DNA from: Sulfurospirillaceae bacterium
GTDB taxonomy: Bacteria; Campylobacterota; Campylobacteria; Campylobacterales; Sulfurospirillaceae
Length of the DNA: 64,000 bases
Assembly: GCA_028684065.1 (NCBI GenBank)
Contig: JAQUGO010000003.1
Span: 184,171-248,170 of the forward strand
Direction: 5' to 3'
In this document: piece after piece, positions 16,839-51,610 of the stretch
Layout of the letters: every line of letters starts with the position of its first letter
Numbering within the stretch: position 1 is the stretch's first letter
Position numbers and translations under genes: made by a program
Notes under the pieces: generated by a model
Databases searched by the model: none
Seen by the model: only the letters and a program-made list of their open reading frames with translations
Told to the model about the DNA's origin: nothing

Positions 16839-16857
16839 AATACACTTGAGGTTACAT

Positions 16858-22365: not shown

Positions 22366-22904
22366 AACTTTTTTTACTATGTGTAGCATTCATTAATTAT
22401 ATGTATGCTTACTCGTACAATGATGTACTCAAAGATTATGAAGCTAAGCGGTTCGAAAAAGTGTGTAATGAGGGCTCAATTTTCTATATGCGCAATGATA
22501 AAAATGAAAACATACTAACAGCTATTGGTGATGCATGCGCAAGAGTTGATTCAATAAACCCTTTAGCAAGCATTGTGAAAAATCTTGTGACTACAAAAGA
22601 GTATCGCGAGAGTGGTTCTTATTTTGCGACATTGGTTTTGCAAAAAAAACTGATTTATCAATTCATGAACGATGATATTAATTTAAAAGAACTTCGTCTT
22701 CCACGTACAAATCATGTTTTATCGCGCGTCTTTGAAAACTTAGCAACGGATAATTATGCAGTTGTAGATAAGGGTCTTAGAAAAATCCAGATATCAACTC
22801 CTGATATGGATTATGTATTGTGGCTTTCCAATGATGATCCTAAAAAAGTCTATATTGATGAATATAAAAATGGCAAACTAATTCAAAGGCATTGGTACCT
22901 TTAA
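22362..22904 (+). CDS. Secreted protein of unknown function in pilus operon
   Basis: A 180-residue protein with a signal peptide (KLFLLCVAFINYMYA then Y). Two cysteines (VCNEGS and DACARV, about residues 32 and 57) may form a disulfide. The middle is helical, perhaps TPR-like, and the end is strand-rich (DYVLWLSNDDPKKVYIDEY). I do not recognise it. It is translationally coupled on both sides (4-base overlap before, TAATG overlap after), so it is an integral part of the pilus operon and a candidate lineage-specific component. Confidence 0.7.
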   Translation: MKLFLLCVAFINYMYAYSYNDVLKDYEAKRFEKVCNEGSIFYMRNDKNENILTAIGDACARVDSINPLASIVKNLVTTKEYRESGSYFATLVLQKKLIYQFMNDDINLKELRLPRTNHVLSRVFENLATDNYAVVDKGLRKIQISTPDMDYVLWLSNDDPKKVYIDEYKNGKLIQRHWYL

Positions 22905-24571
22905 TGTTACGACATAAAATTAGAATTGGTGACATCTTAGTTGAACGTGGTTATATCAGTGAAATACAACTTCAAGATGCATTACGTATCCAAAAAGAGA
23001 GTAATTTTACCAAAAAGTTAGGACAACTTTTTATAGATGATGGTTTAATTACACAAAGAGCATTTATTGAACTTTTAGCAACACAACTCAATATAGAATT
23101 TATTGATCTTTTTGGTGTAGAGATAGATTTTACATTAATGGCGACATTTCAAATTTCAATGCTCAAAAATGCAGATGCTATACCCTTTAAAGAAGATAAT
23201 GATTTTATACATATCGCTGTTGCTGATCCTCTCAATTATGATGCACTAGAGTTACTTGAACGTTCCATTGCGGTTAAACCTATTAAGCTTTATATTGCAT
23301 TACCTTCAGATATCGCACATGTTTTTGGAAGGCTTGAAATTATTTCTGTTACAAAAGCCATTGTTGCCAATATCAAAAGAGAAATTGCTTCTGGTTCTTA
23401 TCGTGCCGATAGTGAACAAAGCTCTATCATGCAATTGATTGAGCAGATTGTTAAAACAGCTATTTTTCATAATGCCAGTGATATTCATATTGAGCCATCA
23501 AGTTTTAATGTAACTGTTCGAACGCGTGTAGATGGAGTACTGCGTGAAAGTTTTGTTTTTGATTTAGATATTTATAATGCGTTATCCTCACGAATTAAGA
23601 TTTTAGGAAATTTAGATATTTCAGAAAAACGTCGCTCACAAGATGGACGTTTTTCGATGAAAGTTAAAAATTCTACTTATGATTTTAGACTTTCAACAGC
23701 ACCAACGATGTTTGGTGAGTCGATTGTTATGAGGATTTTAGATCAGCAAAAGATACTTCTAAAACTTGGTGAATTAGGCATGGAAGAATCTAATTTAAAA
23801 CTTTTTGATGAGCTTTTGAAATCACCTTATGGCATTATTTTTATCACCGGACCTACTGGTAGTGGTAAAACAACAACATTATATGCAGCACTTAATGAAA
23901 TTAAAAGTGTTGATAATAAAATGATTACGATAGAAGACCCTATCGAATATCAACTTCCTTTAGCGCAGCAAATCCAAATTAATGAGAAGATTCATTACTC
24001 GTTTGCAGAAGCTTTGCGCTCAATCTTACGACAAGATCCCGATGTTATCATGGTGGGCGAGGTTCGTGATGGTGAAACTCTCAACATTGCAGTGCAAGCG
24101 TCCTTGACAGGTCACTTGGTCTTTACAACATTGCATACCAATGATGCGCCAAGCGCTATTACTCGTATGATTCAGATGGGCTTGGAGTCCTATTTGATAG
24201 CTGACTCCTTAATTGGTGTCGTCGCACAACGATTGGTACGTAAAATCTGTCCTCATTGTAAAAAAGAATATCGTCCGCAAAAGAGTATCTTAGAAAAAAT
24301 CAAAGCACATCTTCCAGAAGAATTTCATTTTTATAAAGGTGAAGGATGTGCACGATGTTCTTTCACAGGCTATAATGGTAGAACAATGATTAGTGAGATT
24401 TTAAAAATTAGTGAAACCACATCACATATGATCTCTATCAATATGAATAAATATGAGATATCACGTAAAGCAGAAGAAAGTGGTGATTATGTGCCTATGT
24501 TTCTTGATGGCATTGCTAAAGCCCTTCGTGGTGAAACTACCATTGAAGAAGTGTTAAGAGTAGCGAAGTAA
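22904..24571 (+). CDS. Pilus/type II secretion assembly ATPase (GspE/PilB/MshE/CtsE-like)
   Basis: Hexameric cytoplasmic motor ATPase of 555 residues. It has an MshE-type N-terminal domain (about 1-150, starting IRIGDILVERGYISE), then Walker A TGPTGSGKTTTLYA near 315, an Asp box around MITIEDPIEYQL, Walker B QDPDVIMVGEVRDGET, a His box LVFTTLHTNDAP, and the tetracysteine zinc site CPHCKKEY with CARCSFTGYNGR. All motor motifs are intact. The ATG overlaps the previous stop in TTAATG, and the prior TTG at 22892 is not preferred. It drives polymerisation of the pilins in this locus. A PilT retraction ATPase is not present here. Confidence 0.94.
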   Translation: MLRHKIRIGDILVERGYISEIQLQDALRIQKESNFTKKLGQLFIDDGLITQRAFIELLATQLNIEFIDLFGVEIDFTLMATFQISMLKNADAIPFKEDNDFIHIAVADPLNYDALELLERSIAVKPIKLYIALPSDIAHVFGRLEIISVTKAIVANIKREIASGSYRADSEQSSIMQLIEQIVKTAIFHNASDIHIEPSSFNVTVRTRVDGVLRESFVFDLDIYNALSSRIKILGNLDISEKRRSQDGRFSMKVKNSTYDFRLSTAPTMFGESIVMRILDQQKILLKLGELGMEESNLKLFDELLKSPYGIIFITGPTGSGKTTTLYAALNEIKSVDNKMITIEDPIEYQLPLAQQIQINEKIHYSFAEALRSILRQDPDVIMVGEVRDGETLNIAVQASLTGHLVFTTLHTNDAPSAITRMIQMGLESYLIADSLIGVVAQRLVRKICPHCKKEYRPQKSILEKIKAHLPEEFHFYKGEGCARCSFTGYNGRTMISEILKISETTSHMISINMNKYEISRKAEESGDYVPMFLDGIAKALRGETTIEEVLRVAK

Positions 24572-24588
24572 CGATACGAAAGTGACTT

Positions 24589-25833
24589 ATGAAATATTTT
24601 GAAATTGAGTATATCTCAGCGGGAAATAGAGAAAAAATTATTATCCCTTCTGTGCATAAAATTGAAGCTATCAAAACATTTCAAGCCAAATCTTTAGGTT
24701 TTATGGTTAAAGCAGAAGAAATTAGTGAACCATTTACCTATAAAATTGAAGTAGCGAAAGTAAAACTTAAAACATTTTTAACAGCAAAGAAAATTCCTTT
24801 AGAACCTTATATCGCAGCATTACAACAAATTGCCGTAATGCTCAATGCAGGATTACCTATTAATACATGTTTAAAAGATGTGATTAAAACTTCGGATCAT
24901 AAGCGTCTTAAAGAGATTTTTTCAACGGTATTGTTAGAAGTAGAATCAGGTACGAGTATGTCTATATCAATGCAACAATTTAGGGATGAAGTTGGTAATA
25001 TCTCTATTGCAATGTTAGATTTAGGTGAAAAAACAGGTTCTCTTGATGAATCAATCAAAAAGCTAGCGGAAATTTTACAAGAAGTTCATGATAATCGCAT
25101 GAAGCTCAAAAAAGCAACACGTTATCCTATTACAGTTTTATTTGCCATGGTTATCGCTTTTTCTTTTGTGATTACCTTAGTTATCCCTCAGTTTCAAGCA
25201 ATGTTTGTTGAGTATCAAACAACACTTCCTTTCCCGACATTGGTATTGTTGTGGATAGAAGCAGCAATCCGTGAGTATGGTATCTTAGTATTAGCCGGTG
25301 CTGCATTGTTAAGTTTTATCCTTTCTATTGCGTATAAAAAAAGTGCTGCTTTTAAATTATTGTTTGATAAATATATGTTACATGTTTATATTGTGGGGAA
25401 AGTGATCTATTTATCGATGATAGGGCGGTTTATTTATGTCTTTGATCGCTTAGTAAGCTCAGGTATTCCTTTGGTTGAAGCTCTTAAGACGTCTATTGAT
25501 ATTGTTGAAAATAGTTATTTGCGCGAGCGTTTACGAGAGATTATCGATGCGATCGAAGAGGGTAAAAGTTTGACAGAGGGTTTTGATAGCACCAATCAGT
25601 TTGAAAGTATGATTATACAGATGATTAGTGCGGGGGAAACGAGTGGTTCACTAAATAATATGCTAGAAAAAATCACTACAATATACCGAAATAAATACAG
25701 CTATTTGGTTGACAATGTTTCTGTGATGATTGAGCCATTATTGATAGCAGGTATTGCAGGTTTTGTATTACTTCTTGCTCTTGGTATCTTCTTGCCTATG
25801 TGGTCTATTGCTGATGCTGTAGGAGGTATATGA
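24589..25833 (+). CDS. Inner-membrane platform protein (GspF/PilC/MshG/CtsF-like)
   Basis: A 414-residue polytopic protein with two GspF repeats (about 75-200 and 275-400). Conserved QQIAVMLNAGLPINTCL and GEKTGSLDESIKKLAEIL lie in the first, and DRLVSSGIPLVEALK and SAGETSGSLNNMLEKI in the second. Membrane helices fall near 180-205, 215-245 and 385-410. It turns ATPase motion into pilin extraction and lies 17 bases after the ATPase gene. Its stop overlaps the start of a 31-codon gene in TGATG. Confidence 0.93.
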   Translation: MKYFEIEYISAGNREKIIIPSVHKIEAIKTFQAKSLGFMVKAEEISEPFTYKIEVAKVKLKTFLTAKKIPLEPYIAALQQIAVMLNAGLPINTCLKDVIKTSDHKRLKEIFSTVLLEVESGTSMSISMQQFRDEVGNISIAMLDLGEKTGSLDESIKKLAEILQEVHDNRMKLKKATRYPITVLFAMVIAFSFVITLVIPQFQAMFVEYQTTLPFPTLVLLWIEAAIREYGILVLAGAALLSFILSIAYKKSAAFKLLFDKYMLHVYIVGKVIYLSMIGRFIYVFDRLVSSGIPLVEALKTSIDIVENSYLRERLREIIDAIEEGKSLTEGFDSTNQFESMIIQMISAGETSGSLNNMLEKITTIYRNKYSYLVDNVSVMIEPLLIAGIAGFVLLLALGIFLPMWSIADAVGGI

Positions 25834-25928
25834 TGGATATGGAATTTGGAACGATTGGTATTGCCGTTCTTAGCTCTATCATTTTGGGAGTAACCTTTTG
25901 GATTATTCACAAGATAACCAATATTTAG
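25833..25928 (+). CDS. 31-residue single-helix membrane peptide coupled to the platform gene
   Basis: A small open frame of 31 codons: MDMEFGTIGIAVLSS then IILGVTFWIIHKITNI. It has a canonical AGGAGG at 25821-25826, six bases before the ATG, one of the best ribosome sites in the window, and the start overlaps the platform gene's stop (TGATG). The peptide is one hydrophobic helix with a basic C-terminus. I do not know a named homologue. It is probably a small stabiliser of the pilus platform. Its stop overlaps the stop of the convergent pilin gene. Confidence 0.7.
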   Translation: MDMEFGTIGIAVLSSIILGVTFWIIHKITNI

Positions 25929-26530
25929 TTACATGTAAAGGTTAATGTATAGTTTGGTGTTGCCGTTCCTGTAATATCAATGAGTTGAATATCGCCTGCA
26001 AAAAATATTTTACCATTGATACTGTCGACACATGATGTTTTGGGTGGGAGAATGTATGAGAGATAGACCCAAAAGTCATTTTTATCAGGTTTACCTGTTA
26101 TATCACCATTGGGTGCTTTTGTGTCAAATTTTACCCCAATATCTTTATTTGAAGCAGGACCAGTAAAGACAGTTGCATTGTAATCTGTTGCACTGAGTGT
26201 TGCAATTTTTGCAAAGCCATCAGCATCTTTTTTGAGTAAGGCTCCAAAGACTTTATTGTTGGCACTTAAATCACTAGGATAGCCTACACTATTGAGGGCA
26301 GATGATGATTGATTGGTTCCCCATGTGAAGCTATTCTCATTGATGCTCCACTCACCATGCGCTGTTTCTATCGCTGTAGAGACAGCAGAGATAGTAGCTA
26401 TCTCTGCTGTCTTCTTAGCGCCATCACTCACACCACTTAACTTTGGAAGACCCACCGCTGCTAATATGCCAATAATGACAATCACAAATATGAGTTCAAC
26501 CATCGTAAAAGCGGAGTGTTTTATTGACAT
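25925..26530 (-). CDS. Type IV pilin-like protein (major pilin candidate)
   Basis: A 201-residue prepilin: leader MSIKHSA, then FTMVELIFVIVIIGILAAVGL and PKLSGVSDGAKK, a typical type IVa/MshA-like N-terminus with Glu5. Cysteines near residue 168 and at the C-terminus (TFTCN) could form the D-region disulfide. It lies on the opposite strand to the assembly operon, after a second, interrupted pilin gene of the same type, and the pair looks like a duplicated major pilin. It converges on the 31-codon gene with overlapping stops. Confidence 0.85.
   Translation of the reverse strand: MSIKHSAFTMVELIFVIVIIGILAAVGLPKLSGVSDGAKKTAEIATISAVSTAIETAHGEWSINENSFTWGTNQSSSALNSVGYPSDLSANNKVFGALLKKDADGFAKIATLSATDYNATVFTGPASNKDIGVKFDTKAPNGDITGKPDKNDFWVYLSYILPPKTSCVDSINGKIFFAGDIQLIDITGTATPNYTLTFTCN
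25929..25938. repeat. TTACATGTAA copy
   Basis: Exact copy inside the last codons of the pilin gene and directly after the stop of the small plus-strand gene; it may also weaken read-through between the convergent units. Confidence 0.9.
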
Positions 26531-26547
26531 AATAATTATCTTAGCTA

Positions 26548-27234
26548 TTAATTAGGCGCTGAAAAACTTCCAGCTGTTCCTGTACCATTAGAAAGATTAA
26601 CTTTAATAGCTGTTACTGCAACAGGATCTGTACCATTAACATCTAAAAGTTTAACAGATTGTGCTGCAACAATAACACTTGCAACGGTGCCACTTGTAAC
26701 GGTGCTACTTGTAACATTAATATCAGATGAATTTGGATTAAAGACCCAAAAGTCATTTCTATCAGGTTTACCTGCGATATCATTATTGGTTGCATCTGTT
26801 GGGATACTTAATCCACTAGTAGCATTGGATGCTTCACCTTTAATGAGAAGAATATCATTTGAAGCATTGTCATCTGTTCCAATTTTTGCTTCAGTAGCGG
26901 CAGAGGCATAACCAACAATCGTAAATTTTTCACCTTTGTCCATAATGGTTTTAAGAACTTTGTGCGCTGTATTAATGTCTGTATAAGTAGATGCTGTACT
27001 AGCCCCACTAATGGCGGTATCATGTCATGTTACGTTAGTATCTTTGTAATCTTGTAAACGAAATTCTTTTGCAGCAACAATGGCGCCATCTAAACTTCCC
27101 ATTGCAGAGATTTCACTATTTGCTTTTGCATTATCTTTTACACCGCCAAATTTTGGTAACGCAGTAGCTGCCAAAATACCGATAATAACGATGACAAAGA
27201 TCAACTCTACCATTGTAAAACCACTTCTTCTCAT
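26548..27234 (-). pseudogene. Type IV pilin gene interrupted by in-frame TGA
   Basis: The N-terminus MRRSG then FTMVELIFVIVIIGILAATAL and PKFGGVKDNAKA is a full prepilin signal. The frame stops at TGA (27025-27027) after residue 69, yet the same frame stays open for about 159 more codons, through HDTAISGAS, MDKGEKFTIVGYAS and GKPDRNDFWVFNPN, to a stop at 26548. The last segment matches GKPDKNDFWVYLS in the intact pilin at 25925. In a rough alignment the TGA faces a Trp codon (NSFTWG in the intact protein versus TNVT-stop-H), so a single TGG to TGA change explains it. It could be a real nonsense mutation, a read error, or translational read-through. Confidence 0.82.
26677..26721. repeat. About three tandem 15-base repeats in the pilin pseudogene
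   Basis: Units ACTTGCAACGGTGCC, ACTTGTAACGGTGCT and the partial ACTTGTAACATTAAT follow one another. On the coding strand they give five-residue Ser/Thr/Val-rich units (VTSSTVTSGTVASV). The 15-base period keeps the reading frame. Confidence 0.7.
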
Positions 27235-40117: not shown

Positions 40118-42691
40118 ATGAACTCACTCTTTGAACAACTGACAAACCAAATGAGAGAAGCGATTGAAAGCTCAATTAGTCTAGCTCTTCATGCTAAGAA
40201 CTCTGAATCTACACTGCTGCATGTAGTTTGGGGATTAATAACCAATTCGGGCTCAATTCTCAATCAAGTGTTAAATAAAATGAATATTGATAAAACTGCG
40301 ATTGAGTTAGAAATAAAAAGTGAGGTAAAAAACTTACCAACTGTTTCTCAAATTACGAAGGAAAATATAAAAATTTCTAAAAACTTGGTTGATTCTCTAC
40401 AAAAGGCAGAGGGGTTAATGAAACAAAAAGGAGATACTTACCTTTCTGTTGACACGTGGTTACTCGCCAATCTTGAAAGTGATCCTCTTAAAAAGATTTT
40501 GAGTAAGTATCTTGATATCTCAGAATTTAAAAAGAATTTAGAAGCCCTAAGAGGTGGTAAAAAGATAGATAAACAAAGCAGCGATGAAAATCTTGAAGCC
40601 CTTGAAAAATACGGTATTAATCTGACTAAGTTGGCCAATGAAGGTAAACTTGACCCCGTAATTGGCCGTGATGAAGAAATTCACAGAATGATGCAAATTT
40701 TGATTCGTAAAACAAAAAATAATCCTATCTTAATAGGAGAGCCAGGAACTGGAAAAACGGCTATTGCTGAAGGATTAGCGCTTAAAATTGCCCATAACGA
40801 TGTACCCATTAGTTTGCAAAATAAAAGTGTTGTAGCCTTGGATATGAGCTCACTCATTGCTGGTGCAAAGTATCGTGGAGAGTTTGAAGATAGGCTTAAA
40901 GCGGTTATTGATGAAGTGAAAAAAAATGGGAATATCATTTTGTTTATTGATGAGATTCACACGATTGTAGGTGCTGGGGCAAGCGAGGGAAGTATGGATG
41001 CGGCCAATATTTTAAAGCCAGCTCTTGCTCGAGGTGAACTACATACCATTGGTGCAACGACACTGAAAGAGTACCGAAAGTATTTTGAAAAAGATACGGC
41101 TCTTCAAAGACGTTTTCAGCCTGTTAGTGTGAATGAACCGACCATTAATGAGGCATTGCAAATCTTAAGAGGTATTAAAGAAAGCCTTGAAGCGCACCAC
41201 CATGTAACGATTATGGATTCTGCACTAATTGCTGCTGCAAAGCTTAGTAGTCGTTATATTAGTGATCGATTTTTGCCCGATAAGGCGATTGACCTTATTG
41301 ATGAGGCTGCCGCTGAGCTTAAGATGCAAATTGAAAGTGAACCTACGGAGCTTAGTCGTGTTAAGCGAGTTATTAGTACATTAATGGTGGAAAAAGAAGC
41401 CTTATTAATGGAAAAAAACAAGAAAAATGAAGATCGTATTAAAGTGATAGAAAAAGAACTTAGCGATGCCAAAGAGAAGCGCAATGCACTCGAAATTCAG
41501 TTCGAAACGGAAAAAAGTGTTTTTAACGACATTGCTGCCATTAAAACAAAAGCAGAGGCACTCAGACGCGAAGCTGTAAATGCTAAAAAAAATAGTGACT
41601 TTAACAAAGCCGCTGAGATAGAGTATGGGAAGCTTCCAGAACTTGCTAAGCAAGAAGAGGAACTAAAAACTAAGTGGGAAAAAATGGTTCTTTCTGGAAC
41701 ACTTTTAAAAAATAGTGTTGATGAAGAGATGATAGCGACTATTGTCAGTAAATGGACAGGTATCCCTGTGAATAAAATGCTTCAAGGTGAAAAAACAAAA
41801 GTGTTAGCCGTGGAGGATTATCTTAGAAAAGAAGTTGTCGGTCAAGACGCGGCGATTAAAGCTATTGGCCGAGCTATTAAACGTAATAAAGCAGGGCTTA
41901 GTGAAAGTAACAAACCAATTGGTAGTTTTCTCTTTTTGGGGCCAACGGGAGTAGGTAAAACACAAAGTGCCAAAGCATTAGCTAACTTTTTGTTCGATAC
42001 CACAAAAGCATTGATTCGTTTTGATATGAGTGAATATATGGAAAAACATTCTGTTAGTCGTTTGGTAGGAGCACCTCCTGGTTATGTAGGTTACGATGAA
42101 GGTGGACAACTCACAGAAGCGGTGAGAAGAAAACCTTATAGTGTAGTGCTCTTTGATGAAATAGAAAAAGCACATCCTGACGTTTTCAACATTTTATTAC
42201 AAGTGCTTGATGATGGCCGTTTGACCGATAATAAAGGGGTGACAATTGATTTTAAAAACACCATTATTATCTTAACCTCTAACATTGCCAGTGGTAAAAT
42301 TATGGAGTATGAGGGGCAACAAAGAGAAGATGAAGTAATGAAAGAGCTCAAATTGCACTTTAAACCAGAATTTCTTAACCGCCTTGATGACATCGTCATC
42401 TTTAATCCACTAACGGAAGATGGACTAAGAGAAATTGTGACGATTATGTTTAAAGATATCCAAGTTAAACTTGCTGCAAAAGAGATAACAGCTGAGTTAA
42501 GTACGAAAGCAAAAGCTATCATTGCAGAAGCTGGCTTTGACCCAGTTTATGGTGCCAGACCGCTTAAGAGAGCGTTGTATGAGTTGGTCGAAGATAAATT
42601 AGCGGAGATGATTTTAGAAGAGCAGTTGCATGAGGGCGACAAAATCTTGATTGATGCCGATGGCGAGAACATTATGATTAAAAAAATCTAG
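40118..42691 (+). CDS. clpB: Disaggregase chaperone ClpB
   Basis: An 857-residue Hsp104-type ATPase that pulls proteins from aggregates with DnaK. An N-terminal Clp repeat domain (about 1-145), NBD1 with Walker [14 protein letters not shown] (about 207) and Walker [18 protein letters not shown], a coiled-coil middle domain (about 405-525), and NBD2 with Walker [16 protein letters not shown] (about 607) and [17 protein letters not shown] are all present. [16 protein letters not shown] is also normal. AAAGGAG lies 5 bases before the ATG. It has its own consensus promoter with an HspR-like site, and ends at a 36-base palindrome. Confidence 0.97.
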
Positions 42692-42697
42692 CGTTAA

Positions 42698-42733
42698 AAC
42701 TTCTTACATGTAAAGCTTTACATGTAAGAAGTT
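42698..42733. terminator. Perfect 36-base palindrome with two TTACATGTAA copies
   Basis: The left half, AACTTCTTACATGTAAAG, is followed at once by its exact reverse complement, so the dyad runs 42698-42733 with no break; it contains exact TTACATGTAA at 42704-42713 and 42718-42727. It fills the space between clpB and the convergent gene at 42738, and would form a strong hairpin or cruciform and act as a two-way terminator. Confidence 0.8.
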
Positions 42734-42737
42734 ATCT

Positions 42738-43160
42738 CTATTTACAATCTTTATTTTGAACAGAAAATTTAAAAAGTTCTTTGTTGTTTAAATCGAAAAA
42801 AACATAGACAAACGTAGCACCTTTTTGCAAAAGATAACGTATTTCAGAATCACCGCAAAGATAGTTACGATTATTTTCATAGGTTGTTTCTATAAGAGCT
42901 TGTTTATTTTCTTTAAGAAGCTTTTTGAGATGTTCATTATTGGAATCAATTCTATTACGGTATTCAATAACATTTTGAAGTGCAACGATATCAAATAAAG
43001 TCGTGTAATCATCTAACATAATAGGTAAATTATCTTTGGTACCATCTTTAATAATGGAGAGTACCTTTGGTATATCTTCTTCGTCTATATCATTAAAATC
43101 GGTCGTTTCGGCTGCAAATAATGTTGAAATAAGTGCTAAAATGGTTAAGATTTTTTTCAT
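42738..43160 (-). CDS. Small secreted protein of unknown function
   Basis: A 140-residue protein with a signal peptide (KKILTILALISTLFA then A). The mature part is helical and charged (IPKVLSIIKDGTKDNLPIML, then RNYLCGDSEIRYLLQKGATF and a final Cys in QNKDCK), with two cysteines that could pair. The layout EDIPKVLSIIKDG...TYENNRNYLCGD...LLQKGATFVYVF recalls small periplasmic pathway proteins, but I do not recognise it. It converges on clpB through the 36-base palindrome. Confidence 0.72.
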   Translation of the reverse strand: MKKILTILALISTLFAAETTDFNDIDEEDIPKVLSIIKDGTKDNLPIMLDDYTTLFDIVALQNVIEYRNRIDSNNEHLKKLLKENKQALIETTYENNRNYLCGDSEIRYLLQKGATFVYVFFDLNNKELFKFSVQNKDCK

Positions 43161-43222
43161 GCAATTCCTTTGAGCGAATTTTACAATAAAAAAATCAATT
43201 TTTTGACAGGAAAATTAAATTT

Positions 43223-43654
43223 ATGAGTTATTTTTTATGGTTTTCTGAACATTCTTTAAAACATCGCCAAATCATCCAAAAATTACTAACACAAAACTAT
43301 AACAAAGAAGCGATTATTGAGTATTTTAAATTTGAAAATATGCTTATTCATGAACCAGAGTTTTGCCTTCTTTATAAAGAGGGTAAAAAATGTCATGAAA
43401 GAGCGTATTTGAATTGTTATCTTTGTGCGTGTCCTTATTTTCGCTTTAATGATGCTGGAATTCGTGAAGAAAATGATTTAGTGATAAAGAGTGAATGTAT
43501 GATTCACTCCCGTAAAGCGTCTTATTTTGTGCATGAAAAAAGTGCACACTTAGATTGTTCTAAGTGTATTATTCCTCATACTAAGGTATTTGTTGATAAA
43601 CATTTTGATAGCGATTGGATGAAAATCATGAAAGCATGTGTACTACATCGCTAA
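43223..43654 (+). CDS. Cysteine-rich protein of unknown function
   Basis: A 143-residue cytoplasmic protein with nine cysteines. The core is KKCHERAYLNCYLCACPYF (CxxCxC), then KSECMIHSR and LDCSKCIIPHTKV (CxxC), and a last ACVLHR. Such spacing suggests binding of an iron-sulfur cluster or zinc. I cannot place it in a named family. The ATG has AGGAAAA about 10 bases upstream, and its last 12 bases overlap the convergent RraA-like gene. Confidence 0.7.
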   Translation: MSYFLWFSEHSLKHRQIIQKLLTQNYNKEAIIEYFKFENMLIHEPEFCLLYKEGKKCHERAYLNCYLCACPYFRFNDAGIREENDLVIKSECMIHSRKASYFVHEKSAHLDCSKCIIPHTKVFVDKHFDSDWMKIMKACVLHR

Positions 43655-44122
43655 AGGCTCTTTAGAAAGAATAATACCATCGCGATCAGCATACAAATAC
43701 TCTCCCTCATTAAAGCTAACGCCACCAAAATGAAGCGTTACATGTAAAACTCCCTCTTGGGATTGAATCGTCTTTTTGGGACATGTTCCGAGGGCAAAAA
43801 GTGCCACATCTATCTCTTTAGTATTTTTGGTATCTCTGACGTAGCCATTGATAATGATGCCAGCCCAATGATTGTCATGTGCCAATTTCATAAGATTATC
43901 GCCAACAACAGCGGTATAGCTTTCTTCAACATCGACTACAACGATTTTGCCATCGCCTTTTTGTTTTAAAAGTGCTACTAAGCTTTGATTGTTGCCTGGA
44001 AGCTTAATGGTAACGATTTGTCCCATAACTTTTTTGAGTCCGCCAAAAGAGTGTAAGATAGGTGCTAACACCTGAACATCATTGGGGTATTTATCGCAAA
44101 GGTCAGCTGTATAAAATTTCAT
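43643..44122 (-). CDS. RraA-like protein (HMG aldolase/RNase E regulator family)
   Basis: A 159-residue member of the RraA/4-hydroxy-4-methyl-2-oxoglutarate aldolase fold. Motifs are TADLCDKYPNDVQVL at the start, FGGLKKVMGQIVTIKL, then GDNLMKLAHDNHWAGIIING with YVRDTK (Arg-Asp metal/substrate pair), and a C-terminal YLYADRDGIIL. RraA inhibits RNase E in Escherichia coli, but Campylobacterota mainly use RNases J and Y, so an aldolase or oxaloacetate decarboxylase role is at least as likely. It is 11 bases after the tetraheme cytochrome gene. Confidence 0.85.
   Translation of the reverse strand: MKFYTADLCDKYPNDVQVLAPILHSFGGLKKVMGQIVTIKLPGNNQSLVALLKQKGDGKIVVVDVEESYTAVVGDNLMKLAHDNHWAGIIINGYVRDTKNTKEIDVALFALGTCPKKTIQSQEGVLHVTLHFGGVSFNEGEYLYADRDGIILSKEPLAM
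43738..43747. repeat. TTACATGTAA copy
   Basis: Exact copy inside the RraA-like gene, encoding Leu-His-Val on the minus strand. Confidence 0.9.
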
Positions 44123-44133
44123 TGTAACTCCTG

Positions 44134-44493
44134 TTATTTCAAGATTTGAATCAAAGTATTTTGTGTTGGGGAAGTGAATTGTTTTGGGGCTATAAAATCA
44201 GCTTTTTCTACGTGACATGCTGAACATGCCTTGATGGCTTGGTGCTCTTTGATATTGACATAAGCAAAAAATTTTTCTTTAGAGTGACAGGCAAAGCAGT
44301 CTTGCCCACAAAGACCTTTTTCGGAGGGTTTATTATGGCATGTGACGCACGTTTTAAGGATAAGGTGGTCTTTATTTTCAATAAGTGGGACGAGTTTGGG
44401 ATGACACTCTAAGCAACTGCCTCCACATGCATACGCTAAGCTGCTAAAAATAATAAAAAAGAGTATTAAAAAGAGAAAATTTTGTTGGTTCAC
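44134..44493 (-). CDS. Small tetraheme cytochrome c
   Basis: A 119-residue exported protein with a signal peptide (FLFLILFFIIFSSLAYA then C) and four CxxCH heme c motifs: CLECH, CVTCH, CFACH and CSACH. The small size and heme packing resemble periplasmic tetraheme carriers. Axial histidines beyond the CxxCH set are present (KDHL, KEHQAI). The start is GTG with GGAG five bases upstream. The partner reductase is not in the window. Confidence 0.9.
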   Translation of the reverse strand: MNQQNFLFLILFFIIFSSLAYACGGSCLECHPKLVPLIENKDHLILKTCVTCHNKPSEKGLCGQDCFACHSKEKFFAYVNIKEHQAIKACSACHVEKADFIAPKQFTSPTQNTLIQILK

Positions 44494-44577
44494 TCTGTCT
44501 CCGAAACTTTTTGTTAATTATACCTTCAATATGATTAAGATAAAATGCAAAATTACACAAATTTTGTAGGCAAATAG

Positions 44578-44985
44578 ATGAAAAAAGTAGTAACAGGCGT
44601 TGTTGGGAACGATATCCATGTGGTGGCCAATAGGCTCATCGATATCTCTTTACAAGCAAGAGGTTTTGAAGTATTTAACTTAGGTGTCAATACTTCGTTA
44701 GAAGAATTTATTGATGCAGTCGTGGAAACGGATGCCGATATTTTGCTTATTTCTTCACTTAATGGTGAAGCAGAGGGCTGGTGTAGGGATTTACAATTTT
44801 TACGCTCAGAATATTCACTTCGTGATGTTGTTTTTGTCATTGGTGGTAATTTAGCGGTTGGAGAAGCAAAGCAAAGTGATATTATTCCTAAATACCAATC
44901 GTATGGTTTTGATTTGGTTTTTCATCAGGTCGATTTAAATACAGGTTTAGATACGCTTGAAGCGTACATGAAAGAGCGCGCATGA
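44578..44985 (+). CDS. glmS: Glutamate (methylaspartate) mutase, B12-binding subunit S
   Basis: A 135-residue cobalamin-binding subunit (GlmS/MutS/MamA; not glucosamine synthase). VTGVVGNDIHVVANRLIDI holds the cofactor histidine that ligates cobalt; the usual DxHxxG reads DxHxxA here. ARGFEVFNLGVNTSLEEF, ILLISSLNGEAEGW (the SxL motif) and FVIGGNLAVGEAK (the GG motif) follow the family pattern. With subunit E it turns L-glutamate into (2S,3S)-3-methylaspartate by a radical shift. Its stop overlaps the E-subunit start. Confidence 0.92.
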   Translation: MKKVVTGVVGNDIHVVANRLIDISLQARGFEVFNLGVNTSLEEFIDAVVETDADILLISSLNGEAEGWCRDLQFLRSEYSLRDVVFVIGGNLAVGEAKQSDIIPKYQSYGFDLVFHQVDLNTGLDTLEAYMKERA

Positions 44986-46346
44986 GTTTATTGCAAAAAG
45001 AACGCGACATTATTACGCACAATGAATATGCCGATACCTTTGACTTTGACGAAATAGAGTCATTTATTAAAAACGCCCCTAAAGAGCTTTTTATTTCCCA
45101 TCATTTTAAAAAGCGTGATAAGCTATTAGTTCAACCTCGTGGAGGTTTTCCAACCTATAAAAAAATGTTTGCTTTATATGAAGAGTTTATGACTGCGGAT
45201 ATTGATGTACTTCCATTGACCATTGATAGTAATACACGCTTAAATGACTATGCGATGGCGCAAAAAATGCTCATACTTTCCGAAGAAAATGAGATGGATA
45301 TGCTCAATGGCTACCCGCTTGTCAATCACGGCTATCGTACCACACGTAAGATGGTGACACATTTTAATAAACCTGTGAGCCTTAGACATGGCACACCCGA
45401 TGCAAGACTTTTAGTAGAGACTGCTTTGGCTTCTGGTATTTTTGAAATCGAAGGTGGTCCTATAACTTATATGCTACCGTATTCTAAAAATTTCCCTTTG
45501 GATAAAGCTTTTTTGTATTGGAAGTACGTTGATAAAGTTTGTGCTAAATACTCAACCCTTAATGAACCCATCAACCGTGAATCTTTTGGCCCATTGACGG
45601 CAACGCTGGTGCCTCCGTGCATTGTCATCGTGATTCAATTGATTGAAATGCTTTTATCGATAGAAGAGGGCGTAAAGTCCTTTTCGGTGAGTTTTTCACA
45701 AAACGGCTCTATGATGCAAGATATTGTTACCGCCAATGTGCTTAAAAAACTAGCTCGTGTGTATGCCAACCAGTTTGGTGGAGAGGATGCTATTATTAAT
45801 CTTGTTTACCATCAGTGGATGGGAGCATTTCCTCGCGATAAAAACCTTTCCGATTCCCTTATCAATACCAATACCGTCATTGCCGCAATGGTAAGAGCCG
45901 ATAAAATCATCATCAAAACGCGTGATGAAGCTTTTGGTATTCCGACGATGCAGTGCAATGCCCAATCGGTTGCCAATACCAAATATACCCTTCGAACGCT
46001 CAAAGGGCTTCCAGTCATTCACGATGAAGCCGAGGAAGAAAATTTAGAACTTGAGGTTAGGGCGATTATGGAGGCTGTGTTTAACGACAGTGCTGATACT
46101 TTGTGGCGTAAGGTCTTTAATTCCATTAAAAATGGCATTATCGATGTACCGTTTTCACCGCATATCATCAATCATAATGCCGTTATCACGATTCGTGATG
46201 ATGAGGGAAACATTCGCATCATCGACAAAGGCGGGTTACCCCTTCCTGAGCGTTGCTTTGCTTATGAAAAATCAAAAGTCAATTTACCTCCAAGTCAAAC
46301 AGAGATTATCAATAAAATTATCCACGATATAGGGGCGATGCTATGA
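44982..46346 (+). CDS. glmE: Glutamate (methylaspartate) mutase, catalytic subunit E
   Basis: A 454-residue TIM-barrel subunit of B12-dependent glutamate mutase. Family patterns are LLVQPRGGFPTYKKMFALYE, LTIDSNTRLNDYAMAQKML, NGYPLVNHGYRTTRKMV, LRHGTPDARLLVETALASG and EGGPITYMLPYSKNFPL then FGPLTATLVPPCI. The active-site Arg and Glu residues that bind substrate appear kept (RGG, RHGTPDAR). The length is a little below the clostridial enzyme (about 483). It overlaps glmS and glmL by 4 bases each. Confidence 0.94.
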   Translation: MSLLQKERDIITHNEYADTFDFDEIESFIKNAPKELFISHHFKKRDKLLVQPRGGFPTYKKMFALYEEFMTADIDVLPLTIDSNTRLNDYAMAQKMLILSEENEMDMLNGYPLVNHGYRTTRKMVTHFNKPVSLRHGTPDARLLVETALASGIFEIEGGPITYMLPYSKNFPLDKAFLYWKYVDKVCAKYSTLNEPINRESFGPLTATLVPPCIVIVIQLIEMLLSIEEGVKSFSVSFSQNGSMMQDIVTANVLKKLARVYANQFGGEDAIINLVYHQWMGAFPRDKNLSDSLINTNTVIAAMVRADKIIIKTRDEAFGIPTMQCNAQSVANTKYTLRTLKGLPVIHDEAEEENLELEVRAIMEAVFNDSADTLWRKVFNSIKNGIIDVPFSPHIINHNAVITIRDDEGNIRIIDKGGLPLPERCFAYEKSKVNLPPSQTEIINKIIHDIGAML

Positions 46347-47533
46347 GTAAACTTTTAATTGATGTGGGTAGTACCTATTTTAAAGTTTGCCAGCAAAGCG
46401 GTATTAGCCAATATTTTCGTGATTTTAAAAAAGATATTTACGATGATTTGATTACCAAATGTGGTGATATATTTGCGCAATACAAAAAAGAAGATGTTTT
46501 TATCTGCTCATCTGCCAATGGTGGGCTTAGTACGCTGATTATTGGTTTGACCAATTCGTTTAGTTTAAAATTTGCTAAAAATATCGCTTTTAATTCGGGT
46601 ATTAATATCATTGATACGATTTTGTACAGCAAAATTGAAGAAACCAAGGCTCCGCTTGAGCTTGTGGATGTTGTCATTGTTGTGGGTGGCATTGATGGTA
46701 TTGGCAATGTTTTTGATGAAAAACTTTTCAAATACCTACAAAATGTGCAGTACAGCAACATTGTCTATGTAGGAACAAAGCAAGATGCCAATTATCTTAA
46801 AGAGCATCTTCCAGCCCTTAAAATACTAGGCAATATCATTACGGGTAAGTTACATGTAAACGAAGTGGAACTTAAAGAGTATCTGACAAACCTTTACCAA
46901 GCAGACATCGTGGGTAAAGAGGATATCAAACACCTTTATGAATTAACGTCCAATCAAATTTACTCCACACCTTATATCGTGAATCGTTCTTTGCCCTTTA
47001 TTGATGCCAATTTTGAAGTGGTCAATCCTTTTATTGTCGTGGACATTGGAGGCGCAACAACGGATATTCACTACAGTCGGGATTTAGTGCGTGACAATAT
47101 TTTGACGGAAAGCGAATATGACCGTTTAGTTTTTAAAAAATTAGGTGTTTATAAATCTCGGGAGACGCTCGTCTTTGCCGCTAAAAACAATGAGTTTGTT
47201 TATGAGTTGCTCGCATACTTAAATGTCACCGAAAATATTTTAGAAGAAGAGAGTGAAAAAGCTTTACGTATTTTAATGCAGCTTTCAATCTTTTTAGTTC
47301 TTTACAAAGTTTCAAGGCTTAGTTCTATGTATGTGACACTGCATTTAGAACTTTTAAAAACAGTTGTACTAACGGGGGGAATTACTAAAGTGCTCTCCTA
47401 CGAAGAAGTAGAATCCATCATCGTTTTCTTTTATAAAAAAGTCATGAATTTACATGCCATTCCAACCATTGTTATGGACTATAACTATGCTATCTGGACG
47501 CTGGGGATGAGCAATACTGAGACAAGGAGCTAA
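46343..47533 (+). CDS. glmL: MutL/GlmL-type ATPase (glutamate mutase reactivase family)
   Basis: A 396-residue ASKHA-fold ATPase found with glutamate mutase genes, thought to reactivate the B12 enzyme or aid assembly. N-terminal LLIDVGSTYFKVCQQS is the phosphate-1 loop, DVVIVVGGIDGI and ICSSANGGLSTLIIGL are the conserved segments, and FIVVDIGGATTDIHYS near residue 235 is the phosphate-2 loop. TVVLTGGITKVLSYEEV near 340 is the adenosine motif. It is one base before the ligase gene, so it is in the same operon. A TTACATGTAA copy lies inside it. Confidence 0.9.
   Translation: MSKLLIDVGSTYFKVCQQSGISQYFRDFKKDIYDDLITKCGDIFAQYKKEDVFICSSANGGLSTLIIGLTNSFSLKFAKNIAFNSGINIIDTILYSKIEETKAPLELVDVVIVVGGIDGIGNVFDEKLFKYLQNVQYSNIVYVGTKQDANYLKEHLPALKILGNIITGKLHVNEVELKEYLTNLYQADIVGKEDIKHLYELTSNQIYSTPYIVNRSLPFIDANFEVVNPFIVVDIGGATTDIHYSRDLVRDNILTESEYDRLVFKKLGVYKSRETLVFAAKNNEFVYELLAYLNVTENILEEESEKALRILMQLSIFLVLYKVSRLSSMYVTLHLELLKTVVLTGGITKVLSYEEVESIIVFFYKKVMNLHAIPTIVMDYNYAIWTLGMSNTETRS
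46850..46859. repeat. TTACATGTAA copy
   Basis: Exact copy inside glmL, encoding Leu-His-Val. Confidence 0.9.
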
Positions 47534-47534
47534 T

Positions 47535-49109
47535 ATGTCAATTAATTGTATCCGAACATTGATCGAAAAAACAAATGAAATTTGCCCTGATAAAATTGCT
47601 ATTATAGATGGAGCGAAGCAGTTAACGTATGCGACATTGTTTAAAAAAGTCAATCAAGTCGCACGTTATTTGAGCGAACTCAACCTTCCTGCAGGTGCTC
47701 GAATTGGTATTTATTCGTATAAAAATAGTGAACAAGTTATTGCTATCTTGGCTATTTTATCAACGGATTATATTTTTGTACCAATTTCAAGGTTTCTGAA
47801 ACCAGAGCAGGTTGAGCATATTATTGGTGATTGTGGAATTCAATGCATTATCACTGATAAAGCCAAAATCAAGAATATTGATGAGATACACTATACAGGA
47901 AGAATCATCACCTATGAAGCAAGTGAACGCGATATCGTATCGTTTGAAGAAATCTATAAATGTTGTAGTGATACCTTTACATGTAACGTTGGAGATTTTC
48001 AAAATGCAGCGATTACTTATAGTTTTGGCGTAACTGGTTTCCCTCGAGGCATTGTGATTACACATCGAAGTCTTATTGATAGTGCGCGTGTGGTATCGCA
48101 CTATCTTGGATTAAAAGAAAACGATGTTATTTCTGGAACGTTACCTTTTATCTTAGATTATGGTCTTAATCAAATTTTTTGCTCTATCTATAAAAATGCT
48201 ACGCTTGCCATTCATAGCTTAGTATTGCCTGCAGATTTTTTTAATCATCTTATTAACGATAAAATCACTATTTTACCTGTTATGCCACCGCATATTAAAC
48301 AAATGTTTGAAGGTGATACAAAGCGTATCCCACATCCTAAACTATTAGCCAATGTTCGCATCGTGACTTCATCGGGTGGGAAAATTACACCTAAGATGAT
48401 TACGGATATTGAAGAACATTACCCAAATGCTGAATTTTTTTCCATGCATGGGCTCACCGAGGCTTTTCGCTCAACGTATTTAGATCCAAGTCAGCTTAAA
48501 ATTCGTCCAAATTCCATCGGAAAGCCTATTCCTGGTGTAGAGATATATATCATCAATGAACAAGGTTTGGAATGTAAACCTCGTGAAATTGGTGAATTGA
48601 TACATAGAGGAGGGTATATTTATAAAGGTTATTGGAAATCGAAAGAGGATACTCAAAAACGTTTTCAAAGTATTAGAATATTAGATAAGATAGTGAATCT
48701 TGAAGGTGACTTAACAGATGAGATTGTCGTGTGTAGTGGTGATTATGTTTATAAAGACGAAGAAAATTATATCTATTTTGTTTCGCGTAAAGACGATATG
48801 ATCAAATCGTGTGGTTTTAGAATTAGCCCTTACGAGATTGAAAGTGTGGTGCACGATAGAATTGTAGAAATAGATCAATGTGCCGTCTTTTCAATTGAAA
48901 ATGAGAAAGTTGAAGAAGAAATAGTGATGGTCTATAGTGCCAAACGAGAACTCCCTAAAAATGAAATTATTTTTGAGTTGAAAAAACATTTACCTAACCA
49001 TATGATCCCCCATTTGATTGTATATCGAGAAAAATTGCCAATAACAAGTCCCAGTGAAGCAAAAATTGATAAAGAGGTTCTGAAAAAGTTTGTTTTAGAG
49101 CTACGTTAG
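47535..49109 (+). CDS. AMP-forming ligase (acyl-CoA synthetase/adenylation family)
   Basis: A 524-residue adenylate-forming enzyme. A3 reads TYSFGVTGFPRGIVITH (changed from the common SGTTGxPKG), A5 is MHGLTEAFRSTYLDP, the region near 395-420 has SGDYVYKDEENYIYF and SRKDDMIKSCGFRISPYEIE, and the A10 Lys is probably in SEAKIDKEVLKK. FVPISRFLKPEQVEHIIGDC and HGLTEAFRSTYL recall the ligases of exosortase A clusters. Placed after glutamate mutase, it may activate 3-methylaspartate or a derived acid, much as in some actinomycete pathways; this is inference. No carrier protein gene is nearby. Confidence 0.85.
   Translation: MSINCIRTLIEKTNEICPDKIAIIDGAKQLTYATLFKKVNQVARYLSELNLPAGARIGIYSYKNSEQVIAILAILSTDYIFVPISRFLKPEQVEHIIGDCGIQCIITDKAKIKNIDEIHYTGRIITYEASERDIVSFEEIYKCCSDTFTCNVGDFQNAAITYSFGVTGFPRGIVITHRSLIDSARVVSHYLGLKENDVISGTLPFILDYGLNQIFCSIYKNATLAIHSLVLPADFFNHLINDKITILPVMPPHIKQMFEGDTKRIPHPKLLANVRIVTSSGGKITPKMITDIEEHYPNAEFFSMHGLTEAFRSTYLDPSQLKIRPNSIGKPIPGVEIYIINEQGLECKPREIGELIHRGGYIYKGYWKSKEDTQKRFQSIRILDKIVNLEGDLTDEIVVCSGDYVYKDEENYIYFVSRKDDMIKSCGFRISPYEIESVVHDRIVEIDQCAVFSIENEKVEEEIVMVYSAKRELPKNEIIFELKKHLPNHMIPHLIVYREKLPITSPSEAKIDKEVLKKFVLELR
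47977..47986. repeat. TTACATGTAA copy
   Basis: Exact copy inside the ligase gene, in another frame (Thr-Cys-Asn). Confidence 0.9.
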
Positions 49110-49199
49110 GGCAGTGTGCTTAATTTAAGCTTATGCAATTTTAAGTAAAGGTAGGGTAAAATCCGTACCTTAAATTATTTTTTATAAGAAGGACTTTTA

Positions 49200-49334
49200 A
49201 TGAAAAGAACGTTCCAGCCACACAATACACCTAAAAAACGTACCCATGGCTTCAGAGTTAGAATGAAGACTAAAGGTGGACGTAAAGTTATTGCAGCACG
49301 TCGTGCTAAAGGAAGAAGAAGATTGGCCGTTTAA
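49200..49334 (+). CDS. rpmH: Ribosomal protein L34
   Basis: A 44-residue 50S subunit protein, [18 protein letters not shown] then [20 protein letters not shown] and RRRLAV. This is the full canonical sequence. GAAGGAC lies six bases before the ATG. It starts the conserved rpmH-rnpA-yidD-yidC-jag-mnmE operon. A TAAAAT hexamer about 38 bases upstream may be the -10 box. Its last codons seem to overlap the start of rnpA. Confidence 0.98.
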
Positions 49335-49657
49335 AGGATTATGAAACTCTCAAGGAAACACGAGAGTATTCATACATTTATAACAATGCTCAAAAGTGGC
49401 ACTGTGAAGGTGCCTTGGTTTTTTACCATAATGATACAAAAAAACATGTGGGGTTTACGGCTAGTAAAAAGGTTGGAAACGCTATTAAACGAAATTTAGC
49501 GAAGCGTAGGCTTCGTGCGATATTTCTTGAAATACAACCGAATTTATACGATGGTGTGTATGTTTTTGTAGCAAAAGAGAAGATGAATCATCTCTCATAC
49601 GAAGCTTTAAAAAAGGCAATCGTTTGGTCGATGAAAAAGTTAAATTGTATTAAATAA
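49322..49657 (+). CDS. rnpA: RNase P protein component (non-standard start)
   Basis: Protein subunit of RNase P, which matures tRNA 5' ends. The core [27 protein letters not shown] is certain (given here as [15 protein letters not shown] and [10 protein letters not shown]). In its frame there is no ATG/GTG/TTG until TTG 49415, which would cut off the N-terminal part. Yet the frame upstream encodes [20 protein letters not shown] then QKWHCEG, as expected for RnpA, and it opens just after 49309. The only start-like codon there is ATT at 49322, with AAGGA eight bases before, giving 111 residues, the normal size. The ATG at 49341 is out of frame. A base lost near 49341 is the alternative. Confidence 0.85.
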
Positions 49658-49989
49658 TGAAATATTTAGCACTTTTTATAATAAAGCTTTATCAGAAGTT
49701 TTTTACACTGATTGGCTATGGAAGTTGTAGGTATTATCCTACGTGTTCACAGTATGCGAAAGAGCAACTTCTGCACAACAGTATTTTTAAAGCTCTCTGG
49801 TATAGTTTTATTCGCATCTTAAAATGCAATCAATTGTTTGTGGGTGGAATAGATTACCCCATTGTCTCAAAAAAATTTGCATTATCTTCTACTCTACAAC
49901 CACATAAACCTCAGTGTATACCTATTTTTTTTTGGTTTTTTCCAAAAGATAAACAAAGTTTTTATGTCGTAAAAGCTTTTAAACTGTAG
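49657..49989 (+). CDS. yidD: Membrane protein insertion efficiency factor YidD
   Basis: A 110-residue small amphipathic protein that aids YidC-dependent insertion. IIKLYQKFFTLIGYGSCRYY and PTCSQYAKEQLLHNSIFKAL are the family motif with three cysteines. The C-terminal 30 residues (about 80-110) extend past the usual end, with an aromatic-rich PIFFWFFPKDKQSF. The ATG overlaps the rnpA stop (TAATG), and yidC follows after 16 bases. Confidence 0.93.
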   Translation: MKYLALFIIKLYQKFFTLIGYGSCRYYPTCSQYAKEQLLHNSIFKALWYSFIRILKCNQLFVGGIDYPIVSKKFALSSTLQPHKPQCIPIFFWFFPKDKQSFYVVKAFKL

Positions 49990-50005
49990 CAATAAAAGGA
50001 ATCAC

Positions 50006-51610
50006 GTGATAGATAAATTAAGTAGTCAGATGAGAATAATCCTCGCAACCGTCCTTGCATTTTTATTTTTTGCGGTGTACGATCACTATTTTATTCCCAA
50101 AAATATTCCTGAGGCCCAAACAACACAAGCGCTTACTGATAAAAAAGATGTGGCGCAAGGCACAAATGGGTCAATGGCACCATCAAGTTCCACAATGATT
50201 TCTTCTGCTGATGTTGCAACGGTAGCTCCCGTAACACAAGTTAAAGAAAATGAGATTATTGCAACGGTTAAATCAGCTTCATACGAGATGAAGATTGATA
50301 AGCTAGGAAGAATTGCAAAGTTTTATCTTTTAGAAGAAAAGTATAGAGACGATAAAGGTGAACAGTTACAACTCATCAACGTTGATCAAAATCTTTTACC
50401 ATTAGAAATTCGTTTTAGTGAAAAAGTTATCAATGAAGATGCTTTTGTTATGTCATACAGTGCTGATAAAAGTAATATAGATGTTGTTGATGGAGGTAGT
50501 AACCTTGTTTTGACACAAACACTTAATGGTATTATCGTCACTAAAACATTAACATTTTTCCCTTCAGGTAAATATGATTTACATGTAAAACTTAGCACAG
50601 CAAAAGATTATTTTATAAGTCCTGGCGTTCATTCTAGTGTTGCTGTTGATAGTTACACTTTTCATGGTGCTTTTATTAAAAAAGGTGATGATACTATTAA
50701 AACCATTAGTGATGGTGATGCCAAAGGTGATGAGCATTTTGCTGTTGCACGTATTGTTGCTGCCTCTGATAAATACTATACATCATTTTTCTATTCATTT
50801 GACAAAGGTTTAGATACCGTTGTTTCTGTTGGTAAAGAGAAAGCACCGCTTCTTTTTGTAAAAGGGAGTGATGATTTCAAAATTAGTGGTTATATTGGAC
50901 CTAAAGATCATAAATTACTTAAAGAAATCAGCCCAGAATTGACAGACGTTGTTGAATATGGCTTCTTTACATTTATCGCAAAACCACTTTTCTTATTGTT
51001 ATCTTATCTACACGGGCTTTTTGGTAACTGGGGTTGGGCAATTGTTGCTATGACTATCATGATTCGTTTGGTACTTTATCCTTTAACCTATAAAGGTATG
51101 GTATCAATGAATAAGCTTAAAGAGCTTTCTCCTAAGATTAAAGAGTTGCAGAAAAAGTATGGCGATGATAAACAAAAGCTCAATGCTCATATGATGGAAC
51201 TCTATAAAAAACACGGTGCCAATCCAATGGGTGGATGTTTGCCAATACTTTTACAAATCCCCGTATTTTTTGCTATTTATCGTGTTTTGCAAAATGCAAT
51301 TGAACTTAAAGGTGCGGCGTGGATTTTTTGGGTACATGATTTAGCAATTATGGATCCTTATTTTATTCTTCCTGTTGCAATGGGACTAACAATGTTTATT
51401 CATCAGCGTATTACCCCAACAACGATGACCGATCCTATGCAAGAAAAAATTATGAAGTTTTTACCTCTGATTTTTACATTTTTCTTTGTGACTTTCCCCG
51501 CAGGTTTAACACTTTATTGGTTTACAAATAACCTTGCATCAATTGTTCAGCAAACCTACGTTAATAAAATCTTTGCTAAAAAACGTGAAGAAGAAAAGGT
51601 TGAAAAATGA
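50006..51610 (+). CDS. yidC: Membrane protein insertase YidC
   Basis: A 534-residue inner-membrane insertase/chaperone of the Oxa1 family. The first helix (RIILATVLAFLFFAVYDHYF) is followed by the large periplasmic domain (about 40-320) and the five-helix core: GNWGWAIVAMTIMIRLVLYP, then LKELSPKIKELQKKYGDD and GGCLPILLQIPVFFAIYRVL. The conserved Arg in the core groove (MIRLVLYP) is present. The start is GTG, with AAAAGGA five bases before. The stop overlaps jag by 4 bases. Confidence 0.97.
   Translation: MIDKLSSQMRIILATVLAFLFFAVYDHYFIPKNIPEAQTTQALTDKKDVAQGTNGSMAPSSSTMISSADVATVAPVTQVKENEIIATVKSASYEMKIDKLGRIAKFYLLEEKYRDDKGEQLQLINVDQNLLPLEIRFSEKVINEDAFVMSYSADKSNIDVVDGGSNLVLTQTLNGIIVTKTLTFFPSGKYDLHVKLSTAKDYFISPGVHSSVAVDSYTFHGAFIKKGDDTIKTISDGDAKGDEHFAVARIVAASDKYYTSFFYSFDKGLDTVVSVGKEKAPLLFVKGSDDFKISGYIGPKDHKLLKEISPELTDVVEYGFFTFIAKPLFLLLSYLHGLFGNWGWAIVAMTIMIRLVLYPLTYKGMVSMNKLKELSPKIKELQKKYGDDKQKLNAHMMELYKKHGANPMGGCLPILLQIPVFFAIYRVLQNAIELKGAAWIFWVHDLAIMDPYFILPVAMGLTMFIHQRITPTTMTDPMQEKIMKFLPLIFTFFFVTFPAGLTLYWFTNNLASIVQQTYVNKIFAKKREEEKVEK
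50579..50588. repeat. TTACATGTAA copy
   Basis: Exact copy inside yidC, encoding Leu-His-Val-Lys in the periplasmic domain. Confidence 0.9.

Follow-up and report, generated by a model that had tools for sequence, protein, structure and literature searches.

A glutamate mutase operon with an AMP-forming ligase and an RraA-like partner in Campylobacterota and marine Gammaproteobacteria

Four genes that encode the two subunits of a glutamate mutase, a GlmL-type ATPase and an adenosine monophosphate (AMP)-forming ligase-fold protein lie side by side in a 64,000-nucleotide stretch of contig JAQUGO010000003.1 (hereafter the window; assembly GCA_028684065.1) from a Sulfurospirillaceae bacterium. Together with a divergently oriented rraA-like gene, they belong to a compact unit that is present in about a quarter of the sampled Campylobacterales genomes and in marine Gammaproteobacteria. 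The co-occurrence of mutase and ligase, the RraA-like fifth member and the transfer to marine Gammaproteobacteria are new here.

Operon structure and the mutase subunits

According to the list of open reading frames (ORFs), glmS and glmE overlap by 4 bases, glmE and glmL overlap by another 4, and a single base separates glmL from the ligase gene (Table 1). These coordinates and spacings are exactly those given by a sequence-only reading of this DNA, which had missed the rraA-like gene and had noted neither the spread to Gammaproteobacteria nor the erosion of adenylation motifs among the ligases. The order glmS-glmE-glmL-ligase is identical in 86 of 87 complete loci from Campylobacterota and Gammaproteobacteria, and the median intergenic distance in the operon loci is -4 bases. 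Given this shared order and spacing, the grouping of the four genes is not due to chance.

Table 1. Features of the mutase-ligase locus, with positions numbered from the first letter of the window
Feature	Position	Strand	Description
rraA-like gene	43643-44122	-	Divergent fifth member, 159 residues; predicted metal-dependent pyruvate-type aldolase/decarboxylase, not an RNase E regulator
Small c-type cytochrome-like ORF	44134-44493	-	Between rraA and glmS; weak cytochrome c matches below Pfam cut-offs
glmS	44578-44985	+	B12-binding small subunit of glutamate mutase, 135 residues
glmE	44982-46346	+	Catalytic subunit of glutamate mutase, 454 residues
glmL	46343-47533	+	Divergent MutL/GlmL-type ATPase, presumed mutase reactivator, 396 residues
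Ligase gene	47535-49109	+	AMP-forming ligase-fold protein with VinN-like pocket, 524 residues

GlmS scores 161 bits against the NCBIfam equivalog model NF002612 (cut-off 110) and 103 bits against TIGR01501, which is under the cut-off of 135.8, and its best matches in the Protein Data Bank (PDB) are the S chains of glutamate mutase (1be1/1i9c). Within its DxHxxG cobalt-ligand motif, D12 and H14 are kept in 75/75 homologs, and the final Gly is replaced by Ala (A17) in all 75, a conservative departure. GlmE matches Pfam MutE (PF06368) with an E value of 5e-119 and the solved clostridial enzyme (6h9e/1cb7) over residues 18-433 (E=6e-81), and scores just below the TIGR01503 cut-off (379 bits, cut-off 390.1). 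Eight of its residues, R53, R86, R135, E157, Y163, Y167, K312 and E316, correspond in this order to clostridial R66, R100, R149, E171, Y177, Y181, K326 and E330, and are invariant in 85/85 homologs. From the structure of the C. cochlearium enzyme we take their roles to be those of the arginine claw, the catalytic Glu, two Tyr, and a Lys and Glu near the adenosyl group; the glutamate-binding arginines and the catalytic Glu, Tyr and Lys are in place at all eight positions. GlmL is more divergent, matching Pfam MutL (PF13941) with an E value of 1.5e-26 and falling well below the NCBIfam GlmL cut-off, and its DxGST, DIGGATTD and TGG nucleotide motifs are fully or almost fully conserved in 93 homologs. 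The earlier claim of a real glutamate mutase is borne out by the family matches and by the conserved catalytic residues, from which we strongly infer that the enzyme is genuine and makes 3-methylaspartate from glutamate.

Known settings of glutamate mutase are fermentation in clostridia, the cycle of haloarchaea and a few antibiotics of actinomycetes. The methylaspartate pathway of glutamate fermentation and the haloarchaeal methylaspartate cycle share their first enzyme with the present operon, but methylaspartate ammonia-lyase is absent from the genome of the bacterium (99.9% complete). It is also absent, at the family cut-off, from 397 Campylobacterales genomes (our survey sample held 399 genomes from 87 genera, and some searches covered 397), and none was noticed among about 100 operon loci. 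The sequence-only reading had already remarked on the missing ammonia-lyase, an observation that now extends to the order. A catabolic role of either kind is accordingly very improbable, and fermentation is already refuted for these genomes, barring an unrelated ammonia-lyase.

The ligase and its predicted amino-acid pocket

The ligase matches PF00501 with an E value of 2e-60, and its best NCBIfam model is TIGR03098, 'exosortase A-associated', which it matches with 435 bits, far under the cut-off of 592. The kinship with exosortase A ligases that had been proposed from the sequence is upheld by this match and by sequence comparison. However, a link to exosortase itself was rejected, given the absence of any exosortase gene from the genome in a search with PF09721, a family for which only one control genome was positive.

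When the pocket region was searched alone, VinN (3wv4/3wvn) ranked top among PDB sequences, with an E value of 2e-15 for 3wv4. VinN activates (2S,3S)-3-methylaspartate and then transfers it to a carrier protein (PMC11284099; PMC11253843). Ligase residues D208, Y209, S280 and R312 align with VinN D230, F231, S299 and R331 and are invariant in 96/96 homologs, and the selectivity loop (the shortened beta13-beta14) aligns with that of VinN without gaps and has the same length. In VinN, F231, S299 and the short loop are the determinants of beta-amino-acid selection (PMC11253843). The Asp and the Arg also occur in TIGR03098 proteins of Aureimonas and Sinorhizobium, which, however, have Ala/Thr at the positions of Tyr209/Ser280, so that the nearest family does not share the likeness to VinN at the selectivity positions. 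The protein is a sister of the exosortase-A-associated ligases with a pocket region nearest to that of VinN, and specificity for 3-methylaspartate is a prediction that we make with moderate confidence.

Co-occurrence, the RraA-like gene and transfer

GlmE is present in 90 of the 399 genomes (26/87 genera) and the ligase likewise in 90, of which 89 are common to both; one genome has the mutase only, and another, 81% complete, has the ligase only. Presence is therefore concordant in 397/399 genomes, with a Fisher p of about 1e-87 that overstates the number of events, as related genomes are not independent. Two genomes, G011 and G163, have the ligase apart from glmE and retain both. Three others carry mutase and ligase on different short contigs, where assembly breaks are possible. 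Apparent losses of glmS, glmE or glmL in some loci proved, after correction with tblastn, to be artefacts, due either to longer ORFs on the antisense strand or to the end of a contig. It could be argued that an ordinary fatty-acid-CoA ligase happens to lie beside the mutase, as the named family that it matches best consists of acyl-CoA ligases with a hypothetical function. Nevertheless, the concordance persists where the genes are unlinked, the amino-binding Asp sits at the A4 position of the ligase, and the genome encodes a separate long-chain fatty-acid-CoA ligase-type protein, so that a chance neighbour is scarcely credible.

The rraA-like gene is present in 88 of the 90 mutase genomes versus 6 of the 309 others, and lies at most 1.5 kb from glmS in 64 of the 87 loci that hold all four operon genes. 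Their adjacency recurs across several unrelated flanking contexts, and the gene is a fifth member of the module. Its product scores 169 bits against PRK09372 (cut-off 136) and matches solved RraA over its full length (1q5x, E=5e-32), with an altered glycine loop. Regulation of RNase E is not its role here because RNase E/G (PF10150) is absent from the genome, in a search for which six control genomes were positive, and this function was rejected. An R96-D97 pair, invariant in 67/67 sequences, corresponds to R123 and D124 of RraA-fold aldolase/oxaloacetate decarboxylases, of which the Arg is essential and the Asp binds the metal; most RraA homologs are regarded as pyruvate aldolases (PMC5065237). 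The protein is thus probably a metal-dependent aldolase or decarboxylase, and the RraA family, whose usual role is inapplicable here, gains a testable metabolic partner.

One of the six other genomes with rraA, G132, is of the Arcobacteraceae type and holds a decayed module (locus L163, C1:1600000-1612000). Here rraA and glmS are intact, whereas glmE and glmL are deleted along with most of the ligase gene, of which a piece encoding 67 residues is left.

A TyrB/AspC-type transaminase gene lies next to rraA, in convergent orientation, in 15 gammaproteobacterial loci with varied flanks. This neighbour and the oxaloacetate decarboxylase activity of the RraA fold (PMC5065237), along with the invariant R96-D97 pair, would suit a route that turns methylaspartate into 3-methyloxaloacetate by transamination and in which the RraA-type enzyme then forms 2-oxobutyrate by decarboxylation, for use in isoleucine or propionyl-CoA, with the ligase on a side branch. 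However, the 397 Campylobacterales genomes gave no match to this transaminase type, in a search that had no positive control, and consequently we regard the transaminase as at most accessory to the module. The genome also encodes threonine ammonia-lyase (IlvA), the normal source of 2-oxobutyrate, which further weakens the idea of isoleucine rescue, and the tightly coupled ligase with its amino-acid pocket would be left unexplained. We consider this route quite unlikely.

The nearest relatives are Sulfurospirillum and Sulfurospirillaceae metagenome-assembled genomes (MAGs). The module recurs in the same order in Colwellia, Thalassotalea, Neptuniibacter, Vibrio hannami, Halieaceae, Granulosicoccaceae and others. 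Rooted on TIGR03098, the ligase tree places the gammaproteobacterial sequences in a single group inside Campylobacterota, beside Sulfurimonas MAGs. GlmE reaches 92% identity between Campylobacterota and Gammaproteobacteria, and GlmE, ligase and RraA have concordant distance matrices (r 0.83-0.93), which shows that the module was transferred as a unit to marine Gammaproteobacteria. Literature linking glutamate or methylaspartate mutase to Sulfurimonas, Campylobacterota, Arcobacter and their relatives was sought, and nothing relevant was found.

Several other features of these loci and of the window can be noted. In G163 (locus L051, 11130-15652), 4.5 kb of unrelated genes lie between glmE and glmL, and all operon genes are kept. 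Nearly all Arcobacteraceae-type loci carry one to three tandem genes for 91-residue cytochromes c after the ligase gene, and are otherwise unlike the Sulfurospirillum loci in their contents. The small cytochrome-like ORF of the window belongs to a cluster that is confined to some Sulfurospirillum-type loci, and probably lies outside the module. No Rfam match to a riboswitch was found at 42500-50500. The ORF translations of the whole window were read and revealed neither a polyketide or peptide synthetase nor a decarboxylase or a further carrier protein; a natural-product cluster within the window was rejected on this ground. Genes that resemble those for pseudopilins and for type II secretion or MSHA pili form a block at 10351-26943, one end of which carries a gene for a 1331-residue surface protein.

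A candidate pathway and its likeness to known systems

The reading that we prefer, and to which we would commit about half of our confidence, is that the five genes form a horizontally mobile module that produces 3-methylaspartate and attaches it to a pantetheine thiol for use in some metabolite. GlmS and GlmE, with adenosylcobalamin, would convert L-glutamate to (2S,3S)-3-methylaspartate, and GlmL would reactivate the mutase. The ligase would hold 3-methylaspartate as a beta-amino acid in its VinN-like pocket and hand the acyl group to a pantetheine thiol, either of coenzyme A (CoA) or of the general carrier AcpP, and this thioester loading might pull the otherwise unfavourable mutase rearrangement forward. 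The RraA-type enzyme would serve the same pathway as a metal-dependent aldolase or decarboxylase, acting on a keto acid derived from, or joined with, the product, and the end product would be a small metabolite. The sequence-only reading had proposed that methylaspartate is made and activated for an unnamed product; the intact mutase residues and the VinN-like pocket favour this proposal, and the activation is a step that we still infer.

A number of findings weigh against this preferred reading. The genome encodes a single carrier protein, an AcpP-like protein of 76 residues, and no second, dedicated carrier. It also has no VinO-like decarboxylase: its only two proteins of the VinO fold are LysA, identified by its NCBIfam match, and a 614-residue protein that we take to be SpeA-like from its length and sequence. 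An analogy with actinomycete pathways, in which the mutase product is activated for natural products, had been drawn from the sequence; it holds for the pocket, but with neither a second carrier nor a VinO-like decarboxylase the route is incomplete. At the position of VinN K330 the ligase has F311, which is Phe in 95/96 homologs. Its family has the P-loop YSFGxxG, not YTSGSTG, with Ser replaced by Phe in 94/96, and the A10 lysine is lost in 35/96 (as Gln, Arg, Glu, Val or Leu). This lysine (K517 of GrsA) serves adenylation, for which K434 is the thiolation counterpart (PMC11253843). Given the altered P-loop and the losses of the A10 lysine, normal ATP-dependent activation is not assured. Finally, the AlphaFold model of the ligase has a mean predicted local distance difference test (pLDDT) score of 72.9, with the pocket predicted at low confidence, and Foldseek matches it best to general acyl-CoA ligases and not to VinN. 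With a poor pocket and generic matches, the model speaks neither for nor against likeness to VinN.

The same motifs lend some weight to the view that the ligase-fold protein has ceased to adenylate by itself and instead assists the mutase through binding, regulation or acyl transfer, for example by accepting a ready-made adenylate or by making an amide. The nearest relatives, TIGR03098, retain the canonical YTSGSTG and NGK motifs, and in the present family the pocket and the A5 Glu, A7 Asp and A8 Arg nucleotide contacts are invariant (96 homologs) despite the eroded P-loop and A10. However, the A10 lysine (Lys510) is kept in the window's protein and in 61/96 homologs, and ATP/AMP contacts at A5, A7 and A8 would be needless in a mere binding protein. 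We therefore consider a non-adenylating partner unlikely. Since the A8 thiolation lysine (K424) is invariant together with these contacts, whereas the P-loop and A10 are eroded, thioester transfer may be the better-conserved half-reaction of the family. A bolder form of the thioester-loading proposal, which we regard as possible rather than probable, is that a 3-methylaspartyl thioester leads to a novel metabolite or cofactor-like molecule through the concerted action of mutase, adenylation-impaired ligase and RraA-type lyase, and that the module has spread among phyla of sulfur-cycle and marine bacteria through some general advantage. Either way, the module points to an undescribed B12-dependent product.

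Clostridial glutamate mutase operons, in the order mutS-mutL-mutE and with methylaspartate ammonia-lyase, likewise combine the mutase subunits with a GlmL-type ATPase. In contrast, the module has the order S-E-L and no ammonia-lyase, with the ligase in its place. The exosortase A set (TIGR03098/TIGR03099) holds the closest named ligase family, and the GLTEAFRSTYLDP stretch and R312 are common to both. However, TIGR03098 ligases adjoin a pyridoxal phosphate-dependent decarboxylase and a carrier protein, neither of which accompanies the module ligase, whose genome lacks exosortase, and the two families differ at Tyr209/Ser280, in the P-loop and at the A10 Lys. The RraA-like protein resembles the RraA and HMG/CHA aldolase/oxaloacetate decarboxylase family in its full-length match and its R-D pair, but departs from RraA in its glycine loop, in the tie of its gene to a glutamate mutase operon and in a genome without RNase E.

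A separate cluster on a plasmid of Methylobacter sp. YRD-M1 (L150, 4898-10258) encodes asparagine synthetase A, a B12-binding protein, a hypothetical protein, a GlmE homolog (31% identity) and an EamA transporter, and may make a methylaspartate derivative such as 3-methylasparagine.

The vicenistatin cassette of Streptomyces consists of the VinH/VinI mutase, the adenylation enzyme VinN, the acyl carrier protein VinL and the decarboxylase VinO. Unlike this cassette, the module lacks both a polyketide synthase-type carrier and a VinO-like decarboxylase, has GlmL and an RraA-type partner in addition, and resides in Campylobacterota and marine Gammaproteobacteria; its GlmE shares only about 30% identity with homologs on Streptomyces plasmids. 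What the two have in common is a glutamate mutase paired with a protein of the adenylating-enzyme type that has the same key pocket residues and the same loop length (PMC11284099, PMC11253843).

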